A DNA stretch of 64,000 nucleotides from Akanthomyces muscarius (taxonomy: Eukaryota > Ascomycota > Sordariomycetes > Hypocreales > Cordycipitaceae): positions 372,001 to 436,000 of the forward strand of contig NW_026611614.1 of NCBI RefSeq assembly GCF_028009165.1. Reading direction: 5' to 3'. The position numbers and the translations under genes are program-made. Each line of letters begins with the position of its first letter. Within the stretch, counting starts at the first letter, position 1. Below the pieces are notes generated by a model. That model was not told the DNA's origin. It was given only the letters and a program-made list of their open reading frames with translations, and ran no database searches. Below are positions 8,301 through 58,882 of this stretch, piece after piece.

Positions 8301-9275
8301 ACCGACTTCACGCTCCAGCTGGTTCGGAAGAATCTCGGTTATAAGATCCTTAGCATAGGTCGCAGCGGACATGGCCGCATACCCGCGCCACCCTTTTGAC
8401 CAATGCGCATCAGAGTAATCGCAGATGCCACGTATAACAAGACAGGGAAACTGGTTTATCAGTCCTGCAGCTTCCATCTCGAAGCAAAGAACACCAAGTT
8501 CCCCAGCAAGTATATCCCTGATTTCTGCGTCTTCCATGAAACCATCTGCCGAAGCGATGAGGCCGTAATGAACAGCAGGATTATCTTCTGTTTCGAGCGT
8601 CGGATCGCGCTGGATCAATTGATTCTCGTGCGTTTCCTCATTGTTGCTGTCGGTTTGACTATTCTCAATCGGGATGGAGTCGCTTGTATAGAGCCGGTCA
8701 GTGCTTGCCTCTGGTCGACCATACTCCCCTCGTAGCAGCGGTGTCTTCTCAAGGACACCACTAATGCTTGCGTGAATGCCGTTGCCATCGCGTTTATGCT
8801 TCGACATGATTGCACTCACTGCAGTGAGGCATACCCTCGGCGGTTGGTTCATATAATGTAAGCTTTGAAAGCTTCTTGCTTCCACAGTCGCTGTAAAATC
8901 ATAATGAACCACACCGCCATGATTTTGCCCACTTTCCGTGGGCATACTAATAACGACGTCTCCTAGGTGTATATCATGCTCTTTGAGGGGGGCACCACTA
9001 CCAATACCAACCATGACACAGAATTTCACATTTGGGAAGGAGTGCATCATGTCTTTCGCCACCATTGCCGCGGCAGCAACACCATCCTCTTCTGCGCCCG
9101 AAACGGCGAGGACCACTTTATGTCTGCCAATGCTGCCTAGAGTATAGTGATTCTCATCACCATGGTGCACGTATTTTGGCGGGTCGTGTTCTTCGTCAAG
9201 TTGGACTTGGGCAGCGGTGTACTCTAGCGCGAGAGCACTAATCCACCCGATAGTGTAGTCTTCTGGATCGGACAT
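2400..9275 (-). CDS. PNP_UDP-NACHT-ankyrin NOD-like receptor, 2,206 aa, four exons
   Basis: Model: exons 9275-8279, 8203-7381, 7334-3904, 3769-2400. Introns are 8278-8204 (GTCAGT..AAG), 7380-7335 (GTATGT, CTAAC, TAG) and 3903-3770 (GTATGC, GCTAAC, CAG); all phases agree. Residues 1-325 are a nucleoside-phosphorylase-like (PNP_UDP) domain: start [48 protein letters not shown]. The NACHT ATPase follows: the pre-motif [13 protein letters not shown], Walker A GNPGVGKT (404-411), Walker B VVDALDE (506-512), and a winged-helix region at about 660-730. About 19 ankyrin repeats run from roughly 841 to 1490. The last 700 residues form a separate globular region ([22 protein letters not shown]) resembling C-terminal modules of other fungal ankyrin proteins. 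Such receptors are STAND switches: ligand binding by the repeats releases the N-terminal effector. Related PNP domains in immune proteins cleave ATP; that activity here is inferred. Joining of the last exon is the least certain step. Confidence 0.85.
4925..5230 (-). repeat. Three near-identical ankyrin units in tandem (102-bp period)
   Basis: Within the ankyrin array three consecutive 34-residue units ([20 protein letters not shown] and close variants) repeat with a 102-bp period and differ at only a few bases. The other units in the same array are far more divergent. This indicates recent unit duplication or gene conversion. Confidence 0.75.
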
Positions 9276-14725: not shown

Positions 14726-17626
14726 ATGGCGTTTTCGGATCTACTGCTTTCGGACGCTCGCCACATGCTAAATCCACTTCCTAGCATCGCGGAGCGCTCA
14801 CAACAATGCCTTGACGTCTTTGTCGAATGTGCTCGAGACCACCAAGCACTAGGTGTAAGTCCACATGTTTTCAATGATCGAATCGAGTCTTTGGCCGCGT
14901 GGCGAACCTTCATGGGCGTCGACAGACTCGAACAGAAGCTAGCTTGCCACCCACGAGCGCTATTGATTATCCATGCCATATTAGACAAGCTGTGCATACA
15001 GCTTGATGCAGGTATTTCAAGTACCATATTCAGAAAGTACATTCGAAGTGCTAACTTACTCATAGTAACCACAAAAGCAATGTATGTCCAGAGGCAAGGC
15101 GCACGACCCGGACGAACAGAGACATGCAAAAACAAGAGACGAGGAGACCGAAGCGACCATAACCTGGTAATGAAGACCACCGACGAACTCATGATACAAA
15201 TTGAAGACTCAGTAAAATGCCTCAATCGAATCGGCTCTGAACTTGCGATCTTCTGCCAGACGGTCAAGGCTCACGAATTGAGTAACCTGTCGCGCTCGAC
15301 AAGGGCAAAGACACGGAGCATCATCGGCCGTGTCCGCGCGGCTACAGAGCAGCATATTGACCAGAAGCTGCCTAAGGTATCAAGATCTCTTTATAGCGCC
15401 CTTGTTGCCGCTAACGCTCGCCGCATAGAGTACCTACTATGCACCAAGGCTGCGCGGTCACTCTCTAATGATGAAAGCACACTATTGAGGGCGAGGCAAC
15501 TGGGCACGTACCTGGAGCCGTTGATGTGCGTGTCGGACTTGTGTTGCGATAGGCCTGATGACGAGGTGCTCACATTTGCATCGACGGAGGATTGGATTGC
15601 ACACATGAGCAGCGCTGTGCATAGGCCGCGGTGGGCCTGCTCACGGGGCCATGATGACGACGTGAAGCCTGTGTTTGATGATGTCGAGGCGTTCAAAAGG
15701 CATATGCGGATGACACATGGAACGAAGGAGGAGAATATGGAATGCAGAGTTGAGATGGCGTGGTTTGCGGGAGCAAGGGTTACGACAGTGGAGCGGCTGA
15801 TAACGGACTGCATGTTTTGCGATGAATTTGCCGCGGACAATGAAGGAGGTCCCTCATGCGTGTTTGTAAATGCAGCACTTGAGACCCACGTTCGAGAGCA
15901 CTTATTGGGGGTGGCTGACGTCTTGTGGCGCGAGGCTGGAGACGTCTTGCTGGGGTTAGGCGCCGACGACCAAGTGCCCACGTACGAGGACGACATAAAA
16001 GCTACGGCGCCCACTGACTACATAAATCGCCGCGACCGTAATATCCTCCACTATGCCTGTCTTCATGGTAGCACCGAGCTTCTCTCGGCGCTTATTCACG
16101 GGTGCGATGTCATATACCCCCTCATCCGCCAACCCGACGCGAAGGGTCAAACGGCGCTCCATTACGCAGCGCGGCACAACTTAGTTGCCGGCATTAGGGT
16201 GCTAATGGAGGAGTCTGGGGAGCCGACAAGATACTCATCACGCAATGGTCGAGATGGTCCCGATGCCTACAAGCCGCCACTGACTGCTGCCCAGCGGGCT
16301 GAGCGCCTTCGCTTGCTACAGATGCGCGACGGCAATGGCTTCTCGCCCTTTCTCGTGGCGGTGATGCACGGACACTACGCCGCCGCGCGTGCCATGCTTG
16401 TGGACTTCAACGTTCCGGTCGATGCGGTCGATGAGCACTTCGGCGCTTCGGCGCTGATCTGGGCGGCCAGTCGCGGCGATGTGTACTTGACGGAATTGCT
16501 ACTACAACACCGCGCTGACGTTATGTTATCGGCTAGTAACGGACTCGTTCCGCTCCACGAGGCGGCGGCACGGGGTCACGATGCCGTTGTACGCATACTC
16601 CTTAGGGAGAATGACGCGGATGTCGATCGCAGAAGCTCGCGCGGGTTAACGGCGCTGCATCTCGCAGCTGGGGCGGGCCACTTGGCCACCGTGAAACTGC
16701 TTCTACAGCACAAAGCCAGTGCCAACGCTGCTAGCATCGACGGCGTCTCCCCCCTGCACTGTGCTGCCAATGCTGGAGTGGACGCCAATCGCGCCGGCGC
16801 GACCCTAGGCGACCACGTTGCCATTGTGGAACTGCTTCTTCGGCATAATGCCTGTGCGACTGCTGCTACCACCGACGGTGTCTCTCCGTTGCATTGCGCG
16901 GCCAACGCCGGTCACCCACAGATCGTGAGTAGGCTCCTCCTAGAAAGCGCGGCGCCCACGCTCATGGAGGCAACGACTTACCGATGGACGCCGCTACACT
17001 TTGCTGCTACGGCAGGACATACGCGTATCGTAGAGCAGCTCTTAGCCGCTAATCCTACCGTCGATCTCTACGACGCCAACGGGTGGTCAGTCCTTGATCT
17101 CGCTTCGTACCATAATCACTGGTCAACCTTCAAGTTTCTGCTCGGCGTTCCTAACATAACTGACGTCTGCAGCATTAGTCGCACCCGTGTTTCGCATCCC
17201 CACGCTACGCCGTTCCTCCTCCCCCAAGCGCCGATGACGCCCCTCCAGGTCGCCGCCGCCGCTAACAACGTGTCGCTCGCCACATTTCTTCTCGCCAGCA
17301 CCTCAGCCGTGAACGAGACTACCTTCACCCGTCAGACAGCTTTCTATTACGCCGCGCGTGCCGGACACACCGACATGGTCGCCTTGCTTCTCAGCGCGCC
17401 TCATAACGCTGATATCCACATCCTTCCACCTGGAGTGCCCTCGTGGAAGCGCGTCGTCGCTTCCGACACGGCTATTTTCAACCTGATTCGCAAGGTAGGA
17501 CCGATTGGTAGGAGCCCGCCCCAAGCTTTAGATGACGCTGTTAACATCTGGAACGCTAGGCAGCAACGCGGGCTTAAGGACGTCCCACAACAGGGCGTGG
17601 AAGAGAAAAGGTTCCTTGCGGAGTGA
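14726..17626 (+). CDS. Zinc-finger-like/ankyrin-repeat protein, 966 aa, single exon
   Basis: One uninterrupted frame starts MAFSDLLLSDARHML. Residues 1-280 are helical and charged without a recognised domain. Residues of about 300-420 carry a degenerate C2H2-like pair: WACSRGH followed by FKRHMRMTHG, then CMFCDEF followed by ETHVREHL. Such clusters stand between a helical N terminus and the repeats in many fungal ankyrin and NLR-like proteins. About 10 ankyrin units follow from residue 430 (NILHYACLHGSTELLSALI to TAFYYAARAGHTDMVALLL), several interrupted by short insertions. There is no NACHT P-loop. The role is unknown; a repeat-based sensor or adaptor fits the neighbourhood. High GC at third codon positions makes long antisense ORFs here, which are shadows. 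Confidence 0.8.
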   Translation: MAFSDLLLSDARHMLNPLPSIAERSQQCLDVFVECARDHQALGVSPHVFNDRIESLAAWRTFMGVDRLEQKLACHPRALLIIHAILDKLCIQLDAGISSTIFRKYIRSANLLIVTTKAMYVQRQGARPGRTETCKNKRRGDRSDHNLVMKTTDELMIQIEDSVKCLNRIGSELAIFCQTVKAHELSNLSRSTRAKTRSIIGRVRAATEQHIDQKLPKVSRSLYSALVAANARRIEYLLCTKAARSLSNDESTLLRARQLGTYLEPLMCVSDLCCDRPDDEVLTFASTEDWIAHMSSAVHRPRWACSRGHDDDVKPVFDDVEAFKRHMRMTHGTKEENMECRVEMAWFAGARVTTVERLITDCMFCDEFAADNEGGPSCVFVNAALETHVREHLLGVADVLWREAGDVLLGLGADDQVPTYEDDIKATAPTDYINRRDRNILHYACLHGSTELLSALIHGCDVIYPLIRQPDAKGQTALHYAARHNLVAGIRVLMEESGEPTRYSSRNGRDGPDAYKPPLTAAQRAERLRLLQMRDGNGFSPFLVAVMHGHYAAARAMLVDFNVPVDAVDEHFGASALIWAASRGDVYLTELLLQHRADVMLSASNGLVPLHEAAARGHDAVVRILLRENDADVDRRSSRGLTALHLAAGAGHLATVKLLLQHKASANAASIDGVSPLHCAANAGVDANRAGATLGDHVAIVELLLRHNACATAATTDGVSPLHCAANAGHPQIVSRLLLESAAPTLMEATTYRWTPLHFAATAGHTRIVEQLLAANPTVDLYDANGWSVLDLASYHNHWSTFKFLLGVPNITDVCSISRTRVSHPHATPFLLPQAPMTPLQVAAAANNVSLATFLLASTSAVNETTFTRQTAFYYAARAGHTDMVALLLSAPHNADIHILPPGVPSWKRVVASDTAIFNLIRKVGPIGRSPPQALDDAVNIWNARQQRGLKDVPQQGVEEKRFLAE

Positions 17627-24200: not shown

Positions 24201-25590
24201 CAGATAGTCCAGATCTCTATTGATCAATCTAAGCAATAGTTTCACTATTGAGAGTTCTACTCTTAACGACCGACTCACAATACTGCTCAACGTGCTACCC
24301 TATAGCTTCAAGCCTGACGTACTTCCTAAGAAACAGACCTATTGTGACTTAGATTTAAGCTATCGTTACACCTATGTACTCACAAAAGACTAGCTGAAAG
24401 GTCTTGCCACAAAGCTTGACGCGAGAGCATATATTGGATACCTGATTGGCAGCATCTCTTCAACCTATTATCTAATCTGGGTCCCTTCTCCTACGAGACA
24501 CACAGTTTTTAACACCACTCACATCAAGTTCGACAAGAGCAATTTCTATAAAGACGACTGTAAGAGCCACGAAGTAATGATGGCTTAAGAGGCTAAAGAG
24601 ATTATTCGCATCACAAGGCTAGATATAGAAGCATAGGCAGAGGCAGCCGGCAAAGGAGCCTTGTAGAGCCCTACAAGCAGCGCGATAGACCTGCTTAACG
24701 AACCTATTATTAATACGACTCTACAAAGCTCAGGGGGTGAAGGCGCTGAGGAAACAATTCCCGAACAGGTAATTCCTAATCAGGCAATTGCGGCAGCCAT
24801 ACCCCACAGGTAAGAGGCATTAACCCCAGGTTCCCCGGACTCGTGGAACCTCATCTCCCCGCCAGAGACGCCGTGTCAAGAGCCTAACCCCAAAGACTTT
24901 AAACCTGGTGACACAGACGCAGAGGACATAGTCACTAGAGCACTCCTTAGTGCTGTGACAAGCCTCAAACTTAGCAGGCCACATAGAGACTCAATGCCGC
25001 CTCCGCCAAATGGCTATCAAGAGGCTCAAAAGCACCCATAATAGGCCCAACTGTGGGGAGCAATGGCTCTTGAGATGCGGAGACTCGAACAACTTTAGGT
25101 AGCAGAGACGCTCGATAATTGAGTCTAACTTCCGAAGAAGAAGCCTCTTGATCTCCACTGGGTCTACACATAGAAATTCAATCACGTTAGATATCTCAAG
25201 AGATGCAAAGCACGCATCTATGTACGAGGAGACCAACAACTCGAATCCTATCTGTCAAAAGCAGCTATCACATTAGCCTCAAGGACATTCAAGATCTTGA
25301 TGGCGATACTATGTTACTTTGTCTATAAGAGTCGTTAATACGACTTCGTTAATGCCTTCCTTAACGCCCAGCTTGATGAGGAGGTCTATACGAATCTCCC
25401 ACTAGGCTTCGAGCAAAAAGGGAAGTATTGGAGACTATTGAAGGCACTGTACGGCCTGAGGAGGGCACCTCTCCTGTGGCATCGAGAGCTCTTAGCCTTC
25501 TTTCTCAAACAAGGCTTCAAATCAGTGCTAGAGGACCCCTGTGTCATAATAAAGGAAGGTATTATTATCTTCTTCTATATGGATGACCTA
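21284..25590 (+). pseudogene. Copia gag-pol, 5' part, RIP-like nonsense mutations
   Basis: The first 220 codons are intact and show a copia-type Gag start (KLTSSLTKKMDWIEWDEAF, NVWQFFDPES, with the typical W..W...A and VW.y.dP pattern). From 21944 (CTA TAG CTG) the frame continues with many stops: Gln to TAG/TAA and Trp to TAG (for example KDxLKGLATKLD after the solo LTR). Protease, integrase and reverse transcriptase can still be followed. The pattern of CpA to TpA changes on either strand is what RIP leaves in ascomycetes. It cannot encode a functional polyprotein. Confidence 0.8.
23964..24370 (+). repeat. Solo gypsy LTR with 5-bp target duplication
   Basis: The 407-bp sequence begins TGTTACGAACG and ends CTATCGTTACA. 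Its inner part (ctctattgatcaatctaagc and the following lines) matches the LTR of the gypsy element at 56537, although the first half is more divergent. CCTAT at 23959-23963 is repeated at 24371-24375. Removing the LTR plus one CCTAT restores the copia reading GCKAYVLTKD. It is a solo LTR left by LTR-LTR recombination of a related, older element. Confidence 0.85.
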
Positions 25591-25618
25591 CCGCAATAAC
25601 CGAAATGGGTGTCGCGGG
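25591..25618 (+). repeat. Left terminal inverted repeat of the NLR-carrying element
   Basis: 28 bp beginning CCGCAATAACCGAAATGG directly after copia GATGACCTA. About 20 further bases (cgcatttagtgagtt) resemble the inner side of the 45507 end of the second element. Confidence 0.85.
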
Positions 25619-26252
25619 CGCATTTAGTGAGTTTTATTAGTAAGGTGGAGAAGATGACCGCTATTTTTGGCCGCCGTGGCTGCTGAGTACCTCGCTTGTA
25701 CTCCACTGCAGCGCCGTTAACTGGCACTAACGACGCTACTGGAAGCCGCAACGCTCGACTGTGAATCGTTTGTGCCTCGACTAATGACGCAGAAAACAGC
25801 TGCTTTAATGACCCTGCCCTTGGTGATCTGCTGAATGTGGACGACCTGGTGTGATGCTACAGATAGGATTCTCGACACAAGTTGCAACCATGCGGACCGA
25901 GGCAGCTTGAAAAGCCGGAAACCAAAATATCACTGCGCGCCAGGCGACACTTTGAGTCGCACCTAGGAAAAAAATAATTATGTGGCAAACCGACCGAAGA
26001 ACATTATGCTATATTTGAAGAGATGGTATTAATATTATAGCCAAGGCAATGTGACGTAAAGCTGGTTCGTCTGGTGCATTCGACCGGGCGGTATTGCTAC
26101 CTTGCATCGCATTATGCAGCCTGGCAAGCTTACCCCTCACTTGTCCGATTCCACGTTTCTGACACAACACGTATCGATTCGGCGCCGGGAACGTTTGACA
26201 ATTTTATTCGAAACGGACCCGGTTCGCGTGCTGAATACGACCGCTCTCAAGC

Positions 26253-29200
26253 ATGACAGCCTTGATAAGCACAGAGTCTTACGCTATAGGGTGGATTGCC
26301 GCGCTCCCCACCGAGCGTGCTGCCGCTACAGCCCAACTCGATGACCGCCACGAACCGCCGGAAGACTTTGAACAACACCCGTCCGATACAAATTCATACA
26401 CATGGGGCCGCATGTGCAAGCACAATATCGTCATAGCATCACTTCCTGCCGGTGTGTATGGCACGACGGCTGCGGCGACGACAGCGTCTAACCTGCTCGC
26501 ATCCCTGCCGGCGATTAAAATCGGTCTACTCGTTGGGATCGGGGGTGGGATCGCTCGGCATCTGGATCAGGATGTTCGGTTGGGTGACGTGGTTGTTAGC
26601 CAGCCTAAGGGAACTACCGGTGGCGTTATTCAATATGACCTAGGAAAAGCAAGACTCAATGGAAAGTGGGAGCCCAAGGGCATGCTGAACAAGCCGCCCA
26701 AGGTTCTACTGAACGCACTGGCTGCCCTGCAGGCGGAGCATGAGATAGCTCCGCCAAAGATCTCAGATCTTCTCGAAGAGATGTTGACCAAAATGCCACA
26801 GATGAGGAAGCCAAAGAAGAAAGAGCCAGGATATGCTCATCAGGGCTTCGAGAATGATCGGCTATTCGCGTCTAGCTATGGTCACATTGGAGGGCCTACT
26901 TGCGACACATGCGACTCATTGGAAGAAATTCAGCGCGATGAACGAGACACAACCGACCCTGAGATCCACTACGGTATCATAGCCTCTGGAAACACACTTG
27001 TTAAGGATGCTAGCAATCGGGATAAGATCGCAGAGTCCACTGGAAGCGAATGCCTCTGTGTTGAAATGGAGGCTGCCGGCTTGATGGATCATTTTCCGTG
27101 CTTAGTAATTCGGGGGATCTGCGACTATGCTGATTCCCACAAGAATGATCGATGGCGTCGATATGCATCGGCTACTGCGGCAGCGTATGCAAAAGAGCTC
27201 TTGGAATACGTGCCAGCAAAGATGCTCGAAAAAACAACACGAGCAGTAGATATACTAAAGTCAGGTTAGTGTCTTTTTTACGAATATATACAAACCATAC
27301 TAATCGGATAGTAGTCAGTGGAGATGTAAAAAGCATGCGATCCGCGGTGGCTGAAGTGCAAGTGGGGGTTCAAAGCCTTGAGTAAGTCCGCGCGCGCTAC
27401 TCCAATATTTTCCTACTTGACTTGGCCTAATACCTTCGAAATTAGCAATACTGTGCTTAATATACAGCAGACCACTGTGCTTAACCGACTCCGCGTTGCC
27501 GAAGGTGCCTCATTCGACTCATCCGCTCAAGAACATGATCGACATTGCCTGCCGAATACGCGAGTTGAACTGCTCCAACAGGTCTCGGAATGGGCGAAAG
27601 ACTTACATGCAGAGCCAATCTTTTGGTTGAATGGAATGGCGGGAACGGGGAAGTCAACAATCTCTCGCACTGTGGCCAGGTCGTTGGCTGATAATGGTCA
27701 ACTTGGTGCCTCGTTCTTCTTTAAGAAGGGAGAGACTGATCGAGGCAGCCTGTCTAAGTTCTTCATGACTATTGCGGCTGATCTAATTATGAAGAAGCCA
27801 TCAACTGCTCCCCATATTGAAGCCGTTCTTAATGCTGACCATTCAATCACATCGAAGAATTACACTGAGCAGTTTCAGAAGTTTCTACTTGAACCGCTGA
27901 CAAAATGCGACATAGGAGATAGACCTGTCGTTATTGTCGTTGACGCACTAGACGAGTGCGAGCAAGAAGGCGATATTGAGCGCTTTCTCTACCTTGTTTC
28001 TCGGCTTGAGACCGAACTCCCAGACCGCATCAGGATTTTCCTGACGAGCCGACCAGAGGAACCCTTTCGTTCTCAGTTCAAAAAAATTAAAAAGAAAGAT
28101 TCCCGCGTTATCTTACATGAGATACCCAAATCCGTGGTTGAGCATGACATTGACCTATTTCTGAGATACGAGCTCTATTCCATTCGGGCAGACTTTAATA
28201 GCCGGGTACCATTAGAACGACACCTGACAGTGGCTTGGCCCAGCGAATCTAGTTTTGATCGACTTATGAAGATGGCTGTTCCGCTCTTCATTGTTGCTGC
28301 TACTCTTTGCCGCTTTATCAGTGACAATAGAATTGGAACACCCAAGAAGCTACTGGAAAGAGTGCTTTCTCGATCGGGTGACGGGCTATCGCAACTAGAG
28401 ACAACATACCAGTCTGTTTTGGACAACCAAATATCGGCTAGGGCGTCGGTTAGCCAACGAGCAGAAATTATCCAACAGTTTCGCCAAGTCGTTGGGTGTA
28501 TTATCCTGCTCGCAAGTCCTCTGTCGACGTCTTCGCTAGCGGTACTACTCATCATGGATAAGGACGACATTGACAGCAGGCTAGATCTGCTGCACTCTGT
28601 GCTTAGCATCCCTGCATCAGCCCAAGCACCAGTGAGGCTGCTACACCTATCATTTCGAGACTTCCTTCTACATCCTGAGGAACCTGCAATGCCGTTTCGA
28701 GTTGATTGGAAGCAAACTCATGCAAATCTGGCAGCCCACTGTCTACGTATATTACAGTGTCTCAAGAAGGACCTCTGTTATATGAACTCTCCAGGTATGC
28801 CTCGATCTGATATAAGCTCCAAAATAATCGACCGCTATTTACCGCCCGAGGTGCAATATTCCTGCCTATATTGGGTGTATCACTTTGCAGAGGCGGGCAT
28901 TTCTGTCTCTGATGACACAGACGCATATACCTTTTTACAAAAGCACTTTCTTCACTGGATAGAGGCGTTAGCTCTTATTGGCAAGGCATCCCAGAGCCTA
29001 GACTTTCTCAGAACATTACAATCACAAGTTAAGGTGAGAAAAACTGATTATTATAGCTTATTATATTGGAAAGCATGCTTATAGACCTATAGGAAAAGTC
29101 TAGTCGAGAAATATCACTTTTTCTTGAGGAAGCCACTCGATTTATACAGACATATATGTCCACGATTAGCTCAACCCCTCTTCAGCTATATTCGTCGCTG

Positions 29201-31264
29201 CTCATATTTACGCCGAAGCAGAGCAAAATAAGAAACATGTTTGACGGCTCTAACGATAAATGCGGATGGATTTGTCTAGAACCGCGGGTAGAAGAGTACT
29301 GGAGTAATTGTCTGCGGACGCTGGAGGGCCATGAAGGCCAGGTCTCGTCCGCGATCTTCTCGCCCAACTCAATGCTCGTGGCGTCGGCCTCATTCGATAA
29401 AACGGTGCGAATCTGGCGCGCCGACACGGGCGAGTGCGTGCAGACGCTAGAGGGCCATAAACACTCGGTTAGGTCCGTGGTCTTCTCGCCCGACTCGATG
29501 CTCGTGGCGTCGGCCTCATACGACGAAACGGTGCGAATCTGGCGCGCCGACACGGGCGAGTGCGTGCAGACGCTGGAGGGCCATAAACACTCAGTTAGGT
29601 CTGTGGTCTTCTCGCCCGACTCGATGCTCGTGGCGTCAGCCTCATACGACAAAACGGTGCGAATCTGGCGCGCTAACACGGGCGAGTGTGCGCAGACACT
29701 AAAGGGCCACGATAACGCGGTTATATCCGCGGTGTTCTCGCCCGACTCAATGCTCGTAGCGTCGGCCTCCTACGACAAAACGGTGCGAATCTGGCGCGCC
29801 GACACGGGCAAGTGCGTGCAGACGCTAAAAGGCCACGACGACGCGGTTACATCCGCGGTGTTCTCGCCCGACTCAATACTCGTGGCGTCGGCCTCCTACG
29901 ACAAAACGGTGCGAATCTGGCGCGCCGACACGGGCGAGTGCGTGCAGACGCTGGAGGGCCATACACGCGCGGTTAGGTCTGTGGTCTTCTCGCCTGACTT
30001 GGCGCTCGTGGCGTCGGCCTCAGACGACGGTACGGTGCGAATCTGGCGCACCGACACGGGCGAGTGCGCGCAGACGCTGGAGGGCCATACACACGCGGTT
30101 TGGTCCGCGGTGTTCTCGCCCGACTTAATGCTCGTGGCGTCAGCCTCAGACGACAAAACGGTGCGAATCTGGCGCGCTGACACGGGCGAGTGCGTGCAGA
30201 CGCTGGAGGGCCATGAACACTCAGTTAGGTCCGCGGTGTTCTCGCCCGACTCGACGCTCGTGGCGTCGGCCTCAGACGACAAGACGGTGCGAATCTGGCG
30301 CGCCGACACCGACAACTGCGCGCAGACGCTGGAGGGCCACGATGACGCGGTTACGTCCGTAGTGTTCTCGCCCGACTCGACGCTCGTGGTGTCGGCCTCA
30401 TACGACAAAACGGTGCGAATCTGGCGCGCCGACACGGGCGACTGCGCGCAGACGCTGGAGGGCCATGAATACTCGGTCAGGTCCGCGGTGTTCTCGCCCG
30501 ACTCGACGCTCGTGGCGTCGGCCTCAGACGACAGTACGGTGCGAATCTGGCGCGCTGACACGGGCGACTGCACGCAGATGCTGGAGGGCCATACACGCGC
30601 GGTTAGGTCCGCGGTGTTCTCGCCCGACTCAATGCTCGTGGCGTCGGCCTCAGACGACAAAACGGTGCGAATCTGGTGCACTGACACGGGCGACTGCGTG
30701 CAGACGCTGGAGGGCCATGAACACTCGGTCAGGTCTGCGGTGTTCTCGCTCGACTCGACGCTCGTGGCGTCGGCCTCAGATGACGGTACGGTGCGAATCT
30801 GGCGCGCCGATACGGGCGAGTGCGCGCAGACGCTGGAGGGCCATGAACACTCGGTCAGGTCCGCGGTGTTCTCGCCCGACTCGACGCTCGTGGCGTCGGC
30901 CTCAGACGACAAGACGGTGCGAATCTGGCGCGCCGACACGGGCGAGTGTGTACAGACTCTGGATATTGGATATGCTTCACAACGCCTTTTTTTTTGCCCG
31001 AATGGCTCTTGCATAATAACCGATATTGGCGCTATTTCTATCAATATCGGTATTTTACAATCCTCTATAGAGCGCTCTGGCATCGGGATTGATGAAACTT
31101 GGATTACATGGGACGGAAGAAAATTGCTCTGGCTTCCAATTGAATTTCGGCCGCACTGCTCATCTGTGTCAGGGTCTGCAGTTGTAATCGGGTCTAGTTC
31201 GGGAAAGGTAATCATCGTAGGACTATCGAATGATTGCTCTACAGCGTGTGGGTGGTCTTCATAG
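26253..31264 (+). CDS. PNP_UDP-NACHT-WD40 NOD-like receptor, 1,613 aa, four exons
   Basis: Exons 26253-27264, 27312-27381, 27446-29033 and 29093-31264; introns of 47, 64 and 59 nt (GTTAGT..TAG, GTAAGT..TAG, GTGAGA..TAG) with matching phases; 4,842 coding bases without a stop. Residues 1-330 are a PNP_UDP domain (YAIGWIAALPTERAA, LVGIGGG, GDVVVSQP, CVEMEAAGL, GICDYADSH). A short linker (AEVQVGVQSL, VLNRLRVAEGASFDS) leads to NACHT with Walker A GMAGTGKST (424-432), Walker B VVDALDE (525-531) and the FLTSRPEEP sensor. WD40 repeats span 966-1511, followed by a 100-residue tail. This is the architecture of HET-E/HNWD-type non-self recognition proteins with a PNP effector instead of HET. Homologous PNP effectors in bacterial and animal immunity cleave ATP; the same is inferred, not shown. 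The gene lies inside a TIR element. Confidence 0.9.
29318..30955 (+). repeat. Thirteen exact-length 126-bp WD40 repeats
   Basis: The array is exactly 13 x 126 bp (42 residues each) with no length variation. The framework (GH....V..S..FSPDS, LVASAS.D.TVRIWRADTG) is almost invariant in both protein and DNA. Variation is concentrated at the three residues after GH, the residue after the following Val, and two positions in SASxDxT. The array also keeps long antisense frames open; these are shadows. Confidence 0.95.
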
Positions 31265-31391
31265 TATCACTATATATGGTACTTGAAGCTGTACTTGGAA
31301 ATTTCTTCTGGACATCGCTAGGAGCAGATCATCCGGCTAATTGTTCCTAATGTAGCCGTAATAGATACAGACAGGGGTATTTCTATTAAAT

Positions 31392-31600
31392 TGCCTGTCG
31401 GCTTTCCAGTCACTCAGTTGCCGCAGTTGGAGTCGCCGCGGCGGCGTTGCAGTGTCAGCTTGGTTGGCTCTTTGGTGGCGGTATTTACGCTGAAAGCCGT
31501 CCCATCCAGGGTGCGAAAACCATAATTATCGTCAAAATTCTCAAAATTAACATTTGCCATGTTCATCTGGTCTCGCACAGCAAGTACAGGCAAGGAAGCG
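31392..31600 (+). other. Block conserved between the two TIR elements, copy 1
   Basis: This noncoding or cryptically coding stretch downstream of the receptor gene aligns with the reverse complement of 38468-38665 in the second element. Shared segments include GCCTGTCGGCTT, GTTGG.TCGG-type and TTTGGTGG-type stretches and TGGTCTCRCACAGYAAGTAC. One frame gives LGWLFGGGIYAES and HLVSHSKYRQ here, and GLFGGGFYVG and PLVSHSKYRQ there. Both copies lie several hundred bases inside the same terminus. The function is unknown. Confidence 0.65.
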
Positions 31601-32201
31601 CCATCATTGAGAGGGTGCAGCGCGACCGAACCAGTCAGCAGCCGACCAGCCAGCGACGTTGTGGCCACCGTGGCCTCTACGCTAGTTTCTATCGATTTCT
31701 ACGCGTCTCCATCGCTAATTCATCGTCACCTACCTATACCGCTATGAATATACGATTGGTTTGTCCAGGAAGTAGAAAATTAGAATAAAAATCGTTGAAA
31801 TCGAGCTGAAAAATACTTGGTTTTAATGGTGTGGACGCTTAGACAATCGACCTGGAAATCTAGGAACGCCTGTAGCATTGCGACTAGATCCGGCGGTAAT
31901 TCCCACCAAATATGAGTACACCAGGGCTGAGATGCATCACAGTGCCTGAGTAGCCAAGGTGCCTAACAAATGGTGAAGGTGCTCTGAGGCAGCTGATCCA
32001 GACTACATACCTCCATAAAGAGACGCCTATAGGCATCTTAGAGCCTCAGCATTGTGCGGAACGACGCATCGGCTGAAAATAGTTGGTTGGGAATTAGGCG
32101 ATAACTAGCCGTTAGGTCCTGTTAAGAGTAGACAAGAAGGTACTTAGCAGCTACAAGCTATTTGTGGCCGCTCCCCACTGGGTTTGTTATGTAGGTGTAG
32201 A

Positions 32202-32229
32202 CCCGCGACACCCATTTCGGTTATTACGG
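32202..32229 (-). repeat. Right terminal inverted repeat of the NLR-carrying element
   Basis: Reading inward on the minus strand it begins CCGTAATAACCGAAATGG. About 125 bp from this end (32105-32229) match 38054-38178 of the second element at roughly 80 percent, including CTGCTAAGTACCTTCTTGTC. Confidence 0.85.
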
Positions 32230-33015
32230 TACTGGTCCTATTTCCAAAATCCAAGTAGCAGCAGTACGAAGAACTGCATACAAATATCATCAAGTCTTAT
32301 AATGTGAAGCGTATGGGAGAACTTCGCTGGTTCCTAGCGATTAAGGTCACCAGAGACCGTGTTCAAGGGAAGCTCTGGTTATCTCAACGCTCATTCATAT
32401 ATGCAGAAGATCGCGAAAAGATTCTGCAACGGAACAAAGAAGGTGAGAGCACCTCTTCTAACAGGAAAGCTTCAGCCCTATGAGGGAATAGCCTCAGAGG
32501 CAGCCATCAAAGAGTACCAAGCGATCGTGGGGTCGATCGAATACCCCGCGAATACCACCCGGCCAGACGTGGCACACAGTCACTCAAAGCTGGCCCAATT
32601 CCTTCAAAATCCCAGCCCAGAGCACATCAAGGCAGGGATACACTGCATCAACTATCTCGCGACCACTCAAAAGCTCTGTATTCGATACGATAGAAGTATT
32701 GAAGCCGTGGAGGCAATGAGTGATGCAGCCCACGGCGATAACCACGATCGCAAGAGCAGCCAGGGCTTCATCCTCAAGATGTTCGGTGGGCCAGTTATCT
32801 ATCGAGCAGGAAAGCAAAATACAGTGACAACCTCGTCAACTGAGGCAGAGCTGTTGGCCCTCTCGCAAGCAGCGAAAGAAGTTATGGCGTATCGACGATT
32901 GTGTGCCGGGATCGGATTCAACTTCGAAGGATCAATGGATCTCTGCGTGACAACGGACCTCTTAAAGAGTACTAGTCTAAACCTAAAAGGGAACATTTCC
33001 ACCACCACTTTTTAG
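32230..33015 (+). pseudogene. Copia pol, 3' part (end of reverse transcriptase and RNase H)
   Basis: Continues the copia reading after the TIR element: VLFPKSK, a TAG where Gln is expected, QYEELHTNIIKSYNVKRMGEL, WLSQRSF, then a frame change, IVGSIEYPANTTRPDVAHS, KLAQFLQNPSPEHIKAG, QGFILKMFGGPVIYRAGKQN and STEAELLALSQAAKE of RNase H. Sequence after about 32960 no longer matches copia, so the 3' end is truncated. Confidence 0.8.
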
Positions 33016-37775: not shown

Positions 37776-38053
37776 CCTGCAGGCCGATGAAAATATTCCG
37801 TAGAGTTGGTCTCCGTTATATGTTACTTTCGTGAGGCCAAAATAGAGTTGGTCCCACCCGCTATAATATAGAACTAAGGAGTTGGACAGCTACAATAGCG
37901 CCGAGTACCTATTCTCTCTATTTTGATGCGTCTATCAGGAGGACGTATATGGATTTAGGGCTGATTTACACGTGTCAATCAGTGCCCGCACGTCGAGACC
38001 CTCCACACATATCGAAACCACCACCAGCACATGGTCTGAGATATCTGAGGTAC

Positions 38054-38081
38054 CCGTGATAACAGAAATGGGTGTCGCGGG
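38054..38081 (+). repeat. TIR of the second element, left
   Basis: Differs from the 32229 TIR at two positions (CCGTGATAACAG against CCGTAATAACCG). It is preceded by TAC, so one extra C separates it from the TA. Confidence 0.75.
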
Positions 38082-38467
38082 TGAGCAACTACATAACAAA
38101 CTTAGTGGGCAGCAGCCAAAAATAGCTGATACCTGCTAAGTACCTTCTTGTCCGCTCTCAACCGGACCTAGCAGCTAGGTACCTACCGGTACTGGTAGTT
38201 GTCGCTTACTAGTTACTCAATGCTTTACCAAGTACTCTCACGCAGATCATTGTTACACACAATACTGAGGCTGTGAAGGTATTTCTAGCTCTCTGCTACG
38301 AAATAAGATATTTTAAGAATAGAAATAGATTATTTAGGCTCTACTCAATATAGTCTTCACCTTTTGTTAGGTAAATCTAAAGGCTGTCTGGAGCAGTGAT
38401 GGCTTGTTATTGCTGTAGCCAGGGACTGTTTTTTGTGCTCCTAGTGCCTACTTCATCAGTGCTGCTG

Positions 38468-38665
38468 CCGGTACTTACTGTGTGAGACCAGAGGGACATG
38501 GAAGATTTGAATTTCCCAAAATTTAGCAACGATTATAATCTCTGAGCCCTCAGAAGGGACAAAAGTCCCCACGTAAAACCCCCCACCGAAGAGCCCAGCC
38601 GAGCCAACGCAGTAATGCGAAACAACTCCCACTGCTGCGACTAAATGACTGGGAAGCCGACAGGC
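38468..38665 (-). other. Block conserved between the two TIR elements, copy 2
   Basis: Reverse complement aligns with 31392-31600. A minus-strand frame (38671-38456, 71 codons) includes AGLFGGGFYVG and PLVSHSKYRQ, paralleling the other copy. The position relative to the shared terminus is also similar. Confidence 0.65.
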
Positions 38666-38976
38666 AAACATGGTATTCTGTATCCATTACAACTTCAAAT
38701 GGAAAGTGCCCCTCTGTGAAAGCATTAGATCATCAGTTTTGGTAAAGATAATCAGAACGCTTCTTCTTCAATGGATCGAGTGGCTCTGGAAGAGATTACC
38801 CGGTCCTCTGTGTAAGAATGATCACGGGTACACACTATTACGGCGCCGCTCTTAGAATCAACCTAAATTAGGCACGCCAAAATGGAGGTTCGTTATAGCC
38901 AACAATCTATGTCCTTATATTTCATACATCTGATTTCCATAAAATCTTTATCTTTCTCTACAAGCCTATTGAAAGA

Positions 38977-40242
38977 ATGGCATTAGCAAGCACTACACAA
39001 CAAAAATATCCAAGTTGCCTACCAGTTGAAGTTCTTGACGAGATTGGAAACAACATACAGAAAGTCAGAGATTTAAAAGCTTTTGCTACAATGAGCAGCA
39101 GCATATACAATAAAATTGGCTATTCTGTTATCAGACGAGATCCCATAAAGGCCCTGATCCATTATGCAGCAGTCAACAATACTAAGGGTATTGGGGAGGC
39201 ACTCTCCGCTGGAGCAGATATTAATGCTATATACAAGCTAAAGGGTGACGAGCGAAAGAAGCTCCTTCGAGTAGATAAATTTATCTGCGCTGAAGAGTTT
39301 ATGCCTCTACATATTGCTGTAATTATGGGGAGTGTGGACGCCACCGCATATCTTCTAGAACAAGGAGCCAGTCTTAACGCGACAGCTGGCTACCGAAAAA
39401 CTACAGCTTTCTGGCTTGCTACTGACCTTGGATCGGTAGCGACGATGCGGCTGCTGCACAGCAGAGGCAGCGACATCAATCGTGGGGACTCATACGGTAC
39501 CACTCCACTGCATCTTGCTTCTAGGAAAGGCAATAAAGAGATAGTAGAATGGCTCCTGGACCTCGGCGCTAATATAGACGCAAAAGAAGTGGGGTGGGAG
39601 GGCGATACTGCTCTAGGAATAGCTGCAGGCGCTGGGAAGTTAGATATATGCCATCTATTGCTTGAGAGGGGCTGCGATATCGACATGGGAGACAGGACTC
39701 CGTTACATATCGCTGCGGCCAGAGGCAATCAGATGCTAGCCGAGTATCTACTTAAGCGGGGGTCAAAAGTGGATTTAATCGATAGTTCTTGCTCTCATAC
39801 CGCGCTATTAATCGCTGCACACCGCGGCGATATAGCTATGGTTTACTTGCTGCAGACAAATGGCGGCGATATCAATCACGCAGACCAAGGGGGCTCCACC
39901 GCACTACATCACGCGGCCCTATTTACAGATCTAGAGCTCACACAGCACCTTCTTAAACATAATGCAGATGTGCATAAGCAAGACTATAACGGTAATATTG
40001 CTCTTGGGCTGGCCGCTCAGGAGCTAGCAGCAGCCCCGTTTCGTTATGGCTACTTTTCTCAAGGCGCACTTATATATGATCCTCAAGAAAAGACATATAG
40101 GTCGAGGGAAATTTATAAGCTACTGCTTAAAAGCAATAGTAACAGGTTTCATAGAAATAATGAAGGTGATGCCCCTATAGAGATATATCAAAGACGACGG
40201 CAACAGTGGATGCGGTACATCAGGGACGGTGGGTCATGGTAA
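38977..40242 (+). CDS. F-box-like/ankyrin-repeat protein, 421 aa
   Basis: Single exon. Residues 15-50 (CLPVEVLDEIGNNIQKVRDL followed by KAFATMSSSIYN) have the LPxEVLxxI..L...L......S pattern of an F-box. About eight ankyrin units follow (FMPLHIAVIMGSVDATAYLL, GTTPLHLASRKGNKEIVEWL, RTPLHIAAARGNQMLAEYLL, STALHHAALFTDLELTQHLL), then a charged C terminus. The frame is intact and AT-rich compared with the ankyrin genes at 3-17 kb. F-box/ankyrin proteins usually act as substrate receptors of SCF ubiquitin ligases; that is an inference. It is the only clear gene inside the second TIR element. Confidence 0.75.
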   Translation: MALASTTQQKYPSCLPVEVLDEIGNNIQKVRDLKAFATMSSSIYNKIGYSVIRRDPIKALIHYAAVNNTKGIGEALSAGADINAIYKLKGDERKKLLRVDKFICAEEFMPLHIAVIMGSVDATAYLLEQGASLNATAGYRKTTAFWLATDLGSVATMRLLHSRGSDINRGDSYGTTPLHLASRKGNKEIVEWLLDLGANIDAKEVGWEGDTALGIAAGAGKLDICHLLLERGCDIDMGDRTPLHIAAARGNQMLAEYLLKRGSKVDLIDSSCSHTALLIAAHRGDIAMVYLLQTNGGDINHADQGGSTALHHAALFTDLELTQHLLKHNADVHKQDYNGNIALGLAAQELAAAPFRYGYFSQGALIYDPQEKTYRSREIYKLLLKSNSNRFHRNNEGDAPIEIYQRRRQQWMRYIRDGGSW

Positions 40243-43200
40243 ATCCGTTCGCGACAACTTCGGGATCGTAGCCGAAGTTGGAATTACTGCCGCATACTTT
40301 AGGAAGAGCTAGGTTCGCCCGTTGAAAGCGGTTTCGCGAGAAAGATAGGTGAAGCTGGACCCAGCGTTGTGAATGCTCATGCATAGCGTGGAAACCCGTG
40401 ACGCGAGCAGAGCAGCAGAAGATTCGAGGACAACAGATGAAAAGGTAATTCCCGCCGATCAGTTGATATGAGCGTTACATTATCTAGGGATTATAGGAAG
40501 ATACATAAAATTGGCCAGCGCAGTCATCATTGTCACACTCAGCTACTGTAAGGGGCCGGCTTTCACCCAATCATTCATCGCCATTGATGCCTGTGCTCCG
40601 GACTGCTCGAGAAATGGTGTGCACGTCCAAGAGGGACAAGAAGGACCGCTCGTATACTGGAGCCAAGGAGGATGTCTCATTACATCTCGATATCCTCGAG
40701 GAGGATCAGAGAGTCCCTATGAGGTTTTCCAGTGAATTCCTTCGTCAGAATTGATATCATAACTTTGCTTAATAGAGTCCATATCGCTGGTTCCGCCTGG
40801 ATCGAAGTCATTGCCTTCTCCCGGGGTTTCCGGCGGGGTTGCAAGGCCTGCATCTTCCGGGGAGGCCGGAGAGGTTGGGAATGCGGAGAATCTGGGGAAT
40901 TTCACGTGCGGTCTTCAACGTCATGTGTTTCTTCGTCTTCAACTCTTGACTCTGTGGCTTCCGTGCTCTGCCCTCCACCCCTCGAGCTCTGGAAGAGTTC
41001 AATTCCAGTGTCATTCCTCAAGCAGGGCGGTGGCTTGTTGAGCGAGGCGTTGAAGATCAGTTGCTGTGTCAGCAGTTATATCAGGAGTTGAAGCTTCCCG
41101 TGTATTGGTCTCTTGTGGAATCGTCTGGGTTGGCTGGCAGGCCAGCTCATGAGCTCCCGAATCGATATAGAATTGGGTTTCGTCAAATGTGACGAAACTA
41201 GAGTTGATTACCCTCGTGCCTTGAGGGAAGGACCCAAATCAGGTATTGGGTGGATGATTCAATTCCGCCAAATATCCGATATGAGCCCTTTCTAAAAGCT
41301 TGTTAGCTCGTCCGAGGATTCTGTCAGTAGTCATGACAAAGGCTTTATTGTTGAGCAGATAATAGGGTATAGGCCGTCCACAACTAGTGGTCGGCCACGA
41401 TCTTTGCATGACATAAATAGCCACTCTTGTGCAGGGTAACTTACTCCGCAAAAGAAAACAGACACGATCTAGGAATGTTGCAAGGCTACGCCGGCTGGGG
41501 CGTTGCTAGACTAACTGTTGCTCATTGGCGCCTTCTAACCTGCTACTTTCGATCTATCTCGTAGCTCGCTATACCAATCGCTTTACTGGCTCAGCTGGCT
41601 CGATTTTACAAATAGGTTTACGTTTTCACTACTAGCTAGCAGCTCTTCGCCTCCTCGTTCGACCCAGCCGACACTATCATCCCCAATTTGTCGCCGCCTG
41701 ACCCACTGTTGCACCGGTTTGTCGATGGCCTCGCATAGCCTCGCAGCTGCGTAGCGCCGAATTCCCTTCGACTTCCGGCATACCTCACCATAGATCGTGC
41801 CACTGCGCAGCTTTTGAGCTGACTGATTCATCCCTCGCGCCACGGTTGTTGAAAAGCGGCTCCGAGCCGACGCTCCACAACCATCAGATCTGCGCTCCAC
41901 GCCTTTTCCGAGAACCACTGCGCGTACTCGACCCCCTCGCCTGCTCTCGGGTACTGCTGCAACACCAGGACGGGGTGCACCAGACTGTTTGCTGGTGCCC
42001 GATTAATTTAAACAATAGAATAGATAGCTTGCCATTCTGTCACCGGGTTCCTTCGAGTTTCCTCTCTAGGTTTGACCGCTCCTGCCTCACCCTGGTCCGG
42101 TATGTTGTCCTGCTATCTCAAGCGATACACCGCGTCACCAGTTTGGTCGTGCTGGAGGCCAACGGCAGAGCATCGAAACACATCTGTCCCCCAGCCCACA
42201 CTTCCTAGCCTCTTTTCAGTTTACTCTTTGTCAAATAACTGATAACTGCTCTGCGTGACATTTTCTCACTAGATTAATGCTGCCCTCAGACAGCTGAACA
42301 CAGAATCGCTAGTGTGAGGCATGGTAGCACAAGGGGTGTTCGTTGACGTAAAATAATGTTGCAGGTGCTTGACAATGTGCGCTCAGCGCGTAACTTTTCG
42401 ACTGATTTTCCGGCCGCAGAAGACTGGAGTCATTCAGTGTAATACAGATGAAGAAGAAAGAAATGTCACTTCTTCACCAGATAAAAGAATGGTCTAACCC
42501 ATTAGAAGTAATGCGCCCGTCGTTTCAGTCGGGTTGCAGATGGCCAAGAACGTGAACGCTACCCAGATCACAGTGCCAACAGCATACATCACTCCACAGA
42601 GTGGAAATCCGTCACATCTAAGAGAATATCCCAAAGAATGACCAAGGTCGCGTTAACGCCCCGAGTTTTATCGTACGCCCTTTGGTAGACGTAGCTGGAC
42701 ACAATGCTGTATGTGCAATGCTAATGATGAAATTGAAGACTTGCCCACCGGGGCGATTGTTTCGTCGCTTCGGGTGGCAACTGTCTTAATAAAGTAGCAT
42801 GCGACAGGGTGAAGAGGATCTGGGTTGAAATGAAGAACCCTACGTAGCTCGCACAGTCCACCTGCTGCAAGAATGAGGGCCTTCCTATATAGCCCTTTGA
42901 CTGTCAAGGAGGAGCAAGCAGGTCACGAAACCCACCAGGAAAAGAACCAAGAGTTACCAGATAAGCTCCTATCAGAGTGTCAGATAAGTGCTATCAGAAG
43001 TAGACCCTGGTTCTTGCCTGCGCTGCAGTACTTCTCCTGGGTGGCTTTTTGCTTATACCGTAAAGTACCTGGTTTTATTATAGCACATGATTGTTTATTA
43101 CCTCTGCAAAGTACCTGCTTGCTCCTCCGCATCCAAAGGGATAGAGACACTATCAACATAAAATATTGGCACTTACGGCTGCCGCATTCGTTTGTCCTAT

Positions 43201-45479
43201 CCCGAGGGGGGCAAAAAACACCGCCGGTCAATGACAGGCCACAGTAGCTGCCAGCCATCACCACTCTAGCTAACCTTTATCTTTAGATAATAAAAATATC
43301 ATTGGATAATAACTGGAGTGTAAAATAATCTCTAAGTATTTTTGAAATATTTTATTTACCTATACATGGCCCTGAATGACTGTTTGTAGATGACCTCGAC
43401 CGGCGTTATTTTTTGTCCACTAACTAGGCCTGCATAGCATCTGTTGAAAGCAACGCCAGCCCCACGCCAGTGAGTTTTAGCAAAAAGGAGGCACGCCGCC
43501 ACAGCCCTACCTGAACATGGACAGAAGCTGCAGCTGCCAAGGAAATGTAAGGACCAATGGTGAGATATAGAATGGTCAAAAAAAGATCATGATGACTCTG
43601 TTGGGTGGCGGCGGCGAAATCGTGCTCGCATTGACGTCTCGTGCATCGCGTTTCTTGATCTGCCCTTTTGGCATCACGTTGCTCCAATCAAGGCTATTTT
43701 TAGATTGATGCTTGGGAAAGGTAATTATTATGCTCATACTGTCTTCTTTCGCGTATTCCGTATTGATTTTTGAGCTGTAACTAACTGTAGGAGCGCGCGC
43801 TCGGAAAAAGTCCATGGATCCGACAGTATACCCCGTACTTGTTGCTCCATCGACTCCTGGTTATTTTATGTTTTCGTACAACCGAGCGCCGCTAGTGATT
43901 GCTTTGTGACAATTTATTATGCCGTTTTCTCATAACACGTGAGCAAGTTGTTATAATTGAAGACTTCGCTGAGCAGTCAGGAATCTAAGAGGGTGGAGGT
44001 CAATCATACTGTATGAGCTACTCGAGTTATAAAGACCGTCGTGTCCAGCTTTTTGCTACTTTCAAGTGAGAACATGCCAGAGAGAAGAGCCAGACGAGCT
44101 GTGCCTTCGAAATCAAAGCCGATTCCGAAACTCCACCGCGCAGATGAGGTCATATATGAAAAGGCCACTAATAGACCACCTTCGCCAAGGTGTAACAAGC
44201 CTCTCCTCGAAACAAATCGTTCTACCAACCGCGCGCTCTACAGGGTGGACCAGACAGACGACTGCTCACTAGTAGTACCATAATATTGATCGGGCAACTG
44301 TATTAGGTTCGGGATGACAAGTTTATGGGTATCTGTTGCAAGCACCAGTGACTAGACCAACTTGGCTGCCTAGCAGGACCTCTATGGCTTCTTCTTCCTC
44401 CATATTACCGATAGTCCAAGTCAGGTTGTGGAGCTTTATATTCGCCGTCGTCAACTTTCACAGCATGTATTTTACTAATTTTAATGCTTGAGTTGTCTAA
44501 ATATCAGAGGGTGATTATGTGATGATGTGTGCTCTCAGAGCCAAGTAACCAACCAAGCATCAGTAAAAGAGTTCCATAATAATGTAGCGCCTGTGTCCAT
44601 ATAAAGGAAGTTGTCTTTTAAAGCCACAATTCTTACTACACGAGAATTTTGCTAATAGCGATAGTATCCAAGCAACATTGTCGCCGTTGATATTGGAACT
44701 GCTGCAGAACCAAGTTCACTTTAGGAAAGTTAGCGTTATTCATATTGTCTATATCCATATTAATTCATCCATATAAAAGCTCATCATAAGGCCATGATGA
44801 TGTTTTTTTTTCAATACTCGTTATTTCGTTATTTTTCTGGGCACGGGTACTTCACAAGCTCTGACCAGCACTGGCTGGCTGACCTTGGCTGCTGTGTAGC
44901 TTTGTGTGGGCATATCGTGGGGCATTCGCTATGTTCGAAAACAGTGAAAATGTACACCAAAAACCCATTCTCTATTTCCTTGCTTTCAGTGCGCTCAATG
45001 GAGACACATTTTTATTGTAGTAGGGGTGCCCTGTCTGTTAACCACGGGTGCTAGGTCGGGACAAAAAGAGTATCGCGATTCGTACGGCATCATTTTGCTT
45101 ATAACAGGGCATATTTCCACAGTTTTTATATATAAGTTAGCCACAGAAAAAGGCTACTACGAATCTAGAAATAACATTAGTTCTTGAGATAATCATACTA
45201 TATTAAGCTTCTCGAGCACTCATAGAAAGTCAAAGGCTAGCCTATAGGCAATCTGTCGAATTTTTCGCTAATCGAGCTGGTCGCACAGCATGCCCGCCTC
45301 GATAACGCGCTTCCTCACCCTTTTCTCCTTGGATTTCAGCCTGCCCTGATGCTACCAAGGCTGGCCATGGTGCCGGATGCCGAGAAGCCTCTTTCCAGCC
45401 TAGAAGAGAATGAGGCAGTGGCAGTGGGTAACTTTCATTCGGCCCTCCCCAACTCACTACTAAGAACTAACTAAATGCA
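40243..45479. other. Long gene-poor interior of the second TIR element
   Basis: 5.2 kb without a supported gene. ORFs of 60-124 codons (for example 40732-41091 plus, 41583-41918 minus, 41846-42208 plus, 42873-43247 plus) overlap on opposite strands and match no family I know. A short stretch near 42238-42260 (aactgctctgcgtgac) resembles the copia leader at 21100-21118. Cargo here may have decayed. Confidence 0.4.
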
Positions 45480-45507
45480 CCCGCGACACCCATTTCGGTC
45501 TTTACGT
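45480..45507 (-). repeat. TIR of the second element, right
   Basis: Minus strand ACGTAAAGACCGAAATGG.. then GTGTCGCGGG. The outer bases have diverged from the other three copies, the inner 19 are identical. Confidence 0.7.
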
Positions 45508-58814: not shown

Positions 58815-58882
58815 GACCGACTCTTCGACGGAGATCTGACAGGTCTCTATGTACTGCAGACATCGGCAGTACCGCACACCTT

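Follow-up and report, generated by a model that had tools for sequence, protein, structure and literature searches.

Fungal NOD-like receptor (NLR) repertoires differ between strains, and the locus described here raises the question of whether a complete receptor gene can travel as the cargo of a small DNA transposon. The locus lies in a 64,000-bp stretch of the Akanthomyces muscarius genome (36.2 Mb, 12 contigs), namely positions 372,001 to 436,000 of the 777-kb contig NW_026611614.1 (C7:372001-436000; hereafter the window). Within it, a 6,639-bp element, E1 (window 25591-32229), carries a gene for a PNP_UDP-NACHT-WD40 receptor between two 28-bp terminal inverted repeats (TIRs), at 25591-25618 on the forward strand (L end) and 32202-32229 on the reverse strand (R end), which differ at 1 of 28 positions (27/28 identical). 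The flanking letters read ...CTA on the left and TAC... on the right, with TA on both sides, and we read these dinucleotides (25589-25590 and 32230-32231) as the two copies of a target-site duplication. From sequence comparison, we consider it very likely that E1 is a non-autonomous, Pack-type cargo member of an IS630-Tc1-mariner DD34E transposon family, mobilised in trans by a transposase such as that encoded by a sibling element, E4, on the same contig.

The insertion site itself speaks for the arrival of a single unit. E1 interrupts a copia retrotransposon, of which the left flank (25339-25590, +) encodes part of a decayed reverse transcriptase: it ends ...IIIFFYMDDL at 25590 and corresponds to positions 82-171 of the 244 of the RVT_2 profile (E 1e-14). 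The right flank (32232-32480, +) resumes this frame with LVLFPKSK from 32232. Since the left and right pieces lie in one frame, one TA was duplicated. The copia copy is decayed, with stop codons on either side of E1. Right-hand fragments (74 aa, and 218 aa in another frame) gave no Pfam match, the 74-aa fragment gave no PDB match either, and a PDB search of the copia fragments returned nothing useful; the assignment of the right side therefore rests on frame continuity and on copia-type motifs on the LVLFPKSK side.

The gene between the ends encodes a receptor that is open over 1,625 codons in a predicted model with two introns. Exon 1 (26253-27264, +) encodes a PNP_UDP phosphorylase-fold domain (PF01048, E 4e-10), exon 2 (27334-29033, +) a NACHT/NPHP3_N nucleotide-binding domain (PF24883, E 2e-33; PF05729, E 1e-7), and exon 3 (29099-31264, +) WD40 repeats up to the stop codon (PF00400, E 4e-170, 13 scored stretches). 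This splice model, predicted from sequence alone, is one of several GT-AG solutions, since intron 1 allows 9 candidate pairs and intron 2 allows 11. An N-terminal effector-type domain, a NACHT domain, and superstructure-forming repeats together make up the architecture of a fungal NLR. By analogy with other fungal NLRs, the E1 receptor would probably act as a STAND (signal transduction ATPase with numerous domains) switch: ligand sensing would fall to the WD40 repeats and oligomerisation to NACHT, while PNP_UDP would be the effector domain of an allorecognition or immune response. Its domain order is identical to that of fungal PNP_UDP-NACHT-WD40 NLRs (PMC9815663, in the passages compared), some of which bear HET-E-like names in the protein collection, and it differs from these by sitting within a small transposon. 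Among the best 120 of 5,174 matches to its PNP-NACHT part, the closest was from Cordyceps javanica (64%) and no Beauveria-named protein appeared; the search scored the 7,999 best candidates and admitted lengths of 0.55-1.75 times the query, so that differently annotated orthologues could be missed. The missing Beauveria-named match among those listed fits an accessory gene.

The ends of E1 recur in the genome. A 24-bp TIR core at ≤3 mismatches gave 4 matches in the window (mean of 100 shuffles, 0.00) and 14 in the whole genome (reversed-pattern control, 0). A shorter, looser core matched 27 times genome-wide, 18 times at ≤1 mismatch and 9 times at exactly 3; the latter nine were dropped as background, since the reversed-pattern control totals 15. 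All genome-search counts are lower bounds. Twelve of the 18 ends make six inward-facing pairs that span 3.2-7.5 kb and invariably combine an L-type with an R-type end, which gives at least six such elements: E1, E2 (C1:5523829-5529083; 5,255 bp), E3 (C7:356789-363366; 6,578 bp), E4 (C7:486076-489292; 3,217 bp), E5 (C7:585310-590296; 4,987 bp), and the degraded E6 (window 38053-45507, that is C7:410053-417507, reverse strand; 7,455 bp), whose R end lies at 38053 and L end at 45507. TA stands on both sides of five of the six. Contig C7 makes up 2.1% of the genome yet holds 5 of the 6 pairs and 13 of the 18 ends. The first-pass annotation had drawn a 6,639-bp unit with 27/28 inverted ends and TA duplications, lodged inside the copia motif YMDDLLVL. 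Both claims are borne out, the first by the TIR and flank reading together with the shuffle and reversed-pattern controls, the second by the RVT_2 match up to YMDDL, the in-frame LVLFPKSK, and the single duplicated TA. The search that it proposed with the TIR and subterminal sequence, carried out in this genome, is what uncovered the family.

The similarity between elements extends inward from the TIRs. Over bases 29-125, L ends averaged 64.5% identity among themselves and R ends 82.9%, against 45.4% when an L end was compared with an R end. In E1, the L-type subterminal region (25619-25750, +) follows the TIR, and likeness at this end, TIR included, extends over about 158 bp when E1 is compared with E2 and E3, over some 110 bp for E4 and E5, and over some 60 bp for E6; the R-terminal region (31357-32201, +) is 71% identical to that of E3 and 65% to that of E4. 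The motif GCTATTTTTGGC lies in the L subterminal region of E1 about 70 bp from the end, and the same holds about 70 bp in at 5 of the 6 L ends, with its complement about 60 bp in at all 6 R ends (≤1 mismatch); our guess is that it is a putative second binding site of the transposase. Certain variants are shared by the two ends of one element: AATAACCG occurs at both ends of E1 (a related GATAACAG occurs at the R end of E6), and CAGT occurs at both ends of E4. The TA/AT index of repeat-induced point mutation was 0.72-0.81 in E1-E5, 0.93 in E6, 0.82 in the window, 1.05 in the left copia flank, and 0.83 in the right one, and we draw no conclusion from it.

Beyond the pairs, unpaired family ends lie at C3:4809885 (locus L068), C3:4302541 (L067), C6:1636137, C7:80377, and C7:314214. 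Four of these five have L- or R-type subterminal sequence, while C3:4302541 is a TIR only; they are probably remnants of further elements. Directly after the R end of E5 (C7:585310-585490; L035 2311-2490) comes an L-type TIR whose L sequence runs for just 38 bp, and at C7:314 kb (L036) a similar L stub of 39 bp has its L continuation later, which looks like a recurrent short insertion or recombination.

E4 carries two convergent genes, a transposase and a second open reading frame, ORF2. The transposase (C7:488079-489059, reverse strand) is an open frame of 327 aa from a conserved start, MAP. A search on the longer open frame returned DDE_3 (E 2e-22) and HTH_32, and the NCBIfam IS630 transposase model scored 139.7 bits against a cut-off of 100. 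The catalytic triad is D149/D233/E268, the second D and the E being separated by 34 residues (DD34E; 26 of 46 matches used in the alignment). By E-value, the best PDB relative of the transposase is Sleeping Beauty, with SETMAR second; retroviral integrases account for many of the other matches, and bacterial plasmid IS630 transposases match it at 23-25% (five among the matches listed). Genome-wide, it is the only full-length match of seven, the remaining six being partial. E4 is thus the transposase-bearing copy with the same TIR that the first-pass annotation had suggested looking for in this genome, and its transposase is open. The features of the IS630-Tc1-mariner group were found together here: a TA duplication (5 of 6 elements), TIRs common to the family, and a DD34E transposase in E4 with the same ends.

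ORF2 (L034 3773-4927) is open over 428 aa, or 385 aa from its likely start. It matched no Pfam or NCBIfam family and no credible relative among solved structures (best E 0.22). Relatives occur in many other fungi and share a conserved Cys/His-rich stretch (38 of 43 matches used in the alignment). The nearest database relatives of both E4 proteins are from Beauveria bassiana (96% identity). Because relatives of ORF2 and of the transposase bear neighbouring locus tags in Paramyrothecium foliicola (HJFPF1_13484/13485) and Colletotrichum sojae (CSOJ01_15944/15943), the two-gene element looks widespread, adjacency being read from the locus tags only.

The other five elements are loaded with different contents. 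With the transposase as query, E4 was the sole element matched among the six; E1, E2, E3, E5, and E6 gave no match at E≤1, and E1 is thus non-autonomous in the Pack-TYPE sense of having no transposase inside. NLR-type genes occur in 4 of the 5 non-autonomous elements: PNP_UDP-NACHT-WD40 in E1 and E3, PNP_UDP-NACHT-ankyrin in E2, and NB-ARC-TPR in E5 (NB-ARC at 24.5 bits against a cut-off of 23.5). E6 contains an ankyrin-repeat gene (38977-40242, +) and further open frames of 100-168 aa. A truncated ORF2 stands beside the R end in E1 (31283-31593, reverse strand, by tblastn), in E3, and in E6 (about 38354-38729, +), and all three copies carry stops and gaps. In E1 and E3, this degenerate ORF2, hereafter the scar, lies tail-to-tail with the receptor, starting about 20 bp (E1) and about 60 bp (E3) from its stop codon. 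The first-pass annotation had called an intact PNP_UDP-NACHT-WD40 receptor the only recognisable gene of E1. The receptor is indeed open in the predicted splice model and is the main gene; "only" has to be qualified in view of the truncated ORF2.

E1 and E3 are 75-78% identical at the nucleotide level along the L end, the NACHT-WD40 part, and the R end, and we found no similarity between their compared flank stretches (1.5-5.6 kb each; the comparison of flanks and ends covered 18 chosen loci and 12 flank stretches). The best reading is that both descend from one loaded element, have diverged, and now sit at unrelated sites. Since they are alike across the ends and NACHT-WD40 and dissimilar in their flanks, it is simplest to suppose that capture happened once and that the element then moved with its load. 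Given a nucleotide difference of about 22-25% and a synonymous divergence (dS) of about 0.84 in NACHT, their separation is, by these measures, old.

Substitution patterns suggest that the receptor has been under constraint. For the NACHT domains of E1 and E3, the ratio of non-synonymous to synonymous substitution (dN/dS) was 0.18 at a dS of 0.84, and across 7 of 10 pairs it was 0.07-0.21 at a dS of 0.84-1.34, the other three being saturated. The receptor is open and its dN/dS low while the scars hold stops and gaps, so it appears to have been kept as the ORF2 scar decayed, assuming that the shared junction is older than the split of E1 and E3. The domains themselves point to exchange. Among the genes compared, with one match kept per query and target, the nearest PNP to that of E1 belongs to a gene at C3:108 kb (84%), and its nearest NACHT is that of E3 (74%). 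The PNP of E3 is nearest to that of E2 (85%), followed by a gene at C1:3487 kb. Quartet bootstraps grouped the PNP domains as E1+C3|E3+C1 (1000/1000) and the NACHT domains as E1+E3|C3+C1 (1000/1000); because the quartets conflict, the two domains differ in history. E3 thus appears to join an E2-type PNP to an E1-type NACHT-WD40, receptor parts having been exchanged. The nearest genes without family ends (≤3 mismatches), at C3:108 kb (PNP 84%, NACHT 62%, WD40 64%) and C1:3487 kb, are relatives and not an identified donor.

We propose that a complete NLR gene at some point took the place of the transposase gene and of the 3' part of ORF2, with both ends spared. An E4-like transposase would bind E1-type ends in trans, excise the element entire, and insert it at TA sites; loaded elements would also have swapped receptor modules such as the PNP domain through recombination. 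Several observations weigh against this. In this genome we saw no transposition, excision footprint, or empty site; the left copia flank matches only itself genome-wide, and no empty-site paralogue was found. The flanks of E6 are TA and CA, so that TA is missing on one side, and its cargo is an ankyrin-repeat gene, not an NLR. Six of the 18 ends (≤1 mismatch) have no partner even when 3 mismatches are allowed, and E5, whose R end is adjoined by an extra L-type end, may be composite. A 34-bp inverted repeat (94%) lies in the flanks of E3 just outside the element (L033 1683-1716 and 8499-8532), so that E3 looks as if it were nested in another inverted-repeat element, and the first intron of E3 had no canonical donor in our scan. 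The divergence of E1 and E3 noted above, in nucleotides and in NACHT dS, is considerable, and the dN/dS values are rough at the dS of the seven pairs and with three pairs saturated.

Whether the family is specialised for receptors is a separate matter. The elements could be real and their NLR cargo a product of chance, internal replacement in an NLR-dense compartment tending to catch an NLR with no specialisation; we regard this as an even call. It agrees with the presence of 5 of the 6 paired elements on C7, with the abundance of PNP relatives (37 matches), with the non-NLR gene in E6, and with a PNP-NACHT-ankyrin gene in the window (3881-9275) beside which no family ends were found. Set against it, as a raw count, is the presence of NLR-type genes in 4 of the 5 non-autonomous elements; these genes represent three architectures, and one of the four elements, E2, lies on C1.

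Three further explanations bear on how E1 came to its site, and we rejected them on the copia split, the L+R pairs, the dissimilar flanks, and the lack of a C7 captain. The copies might have been made by segmental duplication or ectopic recombination rather than by transposition, and E1 and E3 do lie on one contig about 41 kb apart, start to start; with no similarity in their compared flanks and TA on both sides of 5 of the 6 elements, this is quite improbable. Even less credible is that two separate miniature inverted-repeat transposable elements (MITEs), or solo ends, flank a resident NLR and that the unit never moved whole. Isolated ends exist, as the six without a partner attest, but one copia frame is split with a single TA duplicated, every pair combines an L and an R end, the build of NLR and ORF2 scar recurs in E3 at an unrelated site, and the shortest convergent L/R pair among the ends found measures 3.2 kb. 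Moreover, E1 and E4 each have variants common to their own two ends. The two-MITE model is contradicted, and the single unit favoured by the first-pass annotation holds. Equally remote is the idea that the receptor is Starship cargo with incidental small TIRs: NLRs are reported as Starship cargo (PMC12134995, PMC9815663, and PMC9594970, in the passages compared), but DUF3435 captain matches fall at two C3 places only and none on C7, and a 6.6-kb unit with TA duplications and DD34E-family ends agrees with the annotators' view of a cargo system distinct from Starships.

The family can be compared with several known systems. A TA target and TIRs are common to Sleeping Beauty/DD34E Tc1 elements and the E1 family, and E4 shares their DDE transposase fold by sequence; the E1 family differs in that its transposase-bearing form has a second conserved gene, ORF2, and its non-autonomous forms carry large genes as cargo. 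Pack-TYPE elements of plants (Pack-Mariner), as described in the passages of PMC8903248 compared, are likewise non-autonomous TIR elements with TA duplications and host coding DNA between superfamily ends. In the plant examples, what was captured is a short stretch of coding sequence or one exon, whereas E1, a fungal element, carries an entire receptor gene of several exons together with the ORF2 scar of a transposase-bearing element. ToxhAT (PMC6737239) is, like E1, a fungal TIR-bounded DNA element with a full accessory gene; it is of hAT type, about 14 kb long, and by its authors' account lacks identifiable target-site duplications, whereas the E1 family is of Tc1/mariner type with TA duplications, siblings of varied cargo, and an open transposase-bearing sibling.

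Starships and 'Icarus', as portrayed in the passages of PMC12134995, PMC9815663, and PMC9594970 compared, resemble E1 as fungal mobile elements with NLR or HET (heterokaryon incompatibility) cargo. Starships, 15-700 kb in size, depend on a DUF3435 tyrosine recombinase for their movement (PMC12134995), whereas the contig of E1 has no captain match. The statement in PMC9815663 that transposons can carry fungal NLRs cites a Starship paper. 'Icarus' (PMC9594970) is a putative 294-kb element with TIRs, DDE endonucleases, NLR/HET cargo, and no captain, which its authors suggest may be disabled; it is the nearest hint of DDE-linked NLR cargo in the literature passages compared. In open-licence literature, screened by title and the start of the abstract, we found no Tc1/mariner or other small TIR element described with a fungal NLR.

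The surroundings of E1 form an NLR-rich region. The neighbouring PNP_UDP-NACHT-ankyrin NLR (3881-9275, reverse strand; PNP 8205-9275, NACHT 7344-8123, ankyrin 3881-7390) lies outside any element found. The window also contains a gene for a 966-aa ankyrin protein (14726-17626, +), a MADS-box (SRF-TF) gene (50137-51057, +), a weak patatin match below cut-off (53514-54485, reverse strand), and a gypsy-type retrotransposon (56982-62245, +) with an open gag (56982-58814) and a pol with chromodomain (58883-62245). Elsewhere, two DUF3435 captain-type genes (C3:411319-412610 and C3:549669-550960) have identical scores and opposite orientation about 138 kb apart, and they are a possible Starship pair.

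The NLR carriers in the passages compared are giant, namely Starships and the putative 294-kb 'Icarus' (PMC12134995, PMC9815663, and PMC9594970). An element of 5-7 kb that has short TIRs, carries whole receptors, and has a sibling with an open transposase gene would be a simpler vehicle, and a convenient one for experiments. If small DNA elements do move receptors, presence/absence variation is to be expected, and receptor gain and loss become testable as TA-flanked empty versus filled sites. The decaying ORF2 scar beside the receptor offers an internal yardstick for constraint on the cargo after capture, and E3, with its apparent combination of E2-type PNP and E1-type NACHT-WD40, links transposition to module swapping. 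More tentatively, and with rather more doubt than confidence, we speculate that this Tc1/mariner family may have become specialised in carrying receptors of fungal innate immunity and allorecognition, spreading whole NLRs under selection in trans and providing meeting points for module swaps, so that part of their presence/absence and modular diversity would stem from a 5-7 kb transposon and not from Starships.

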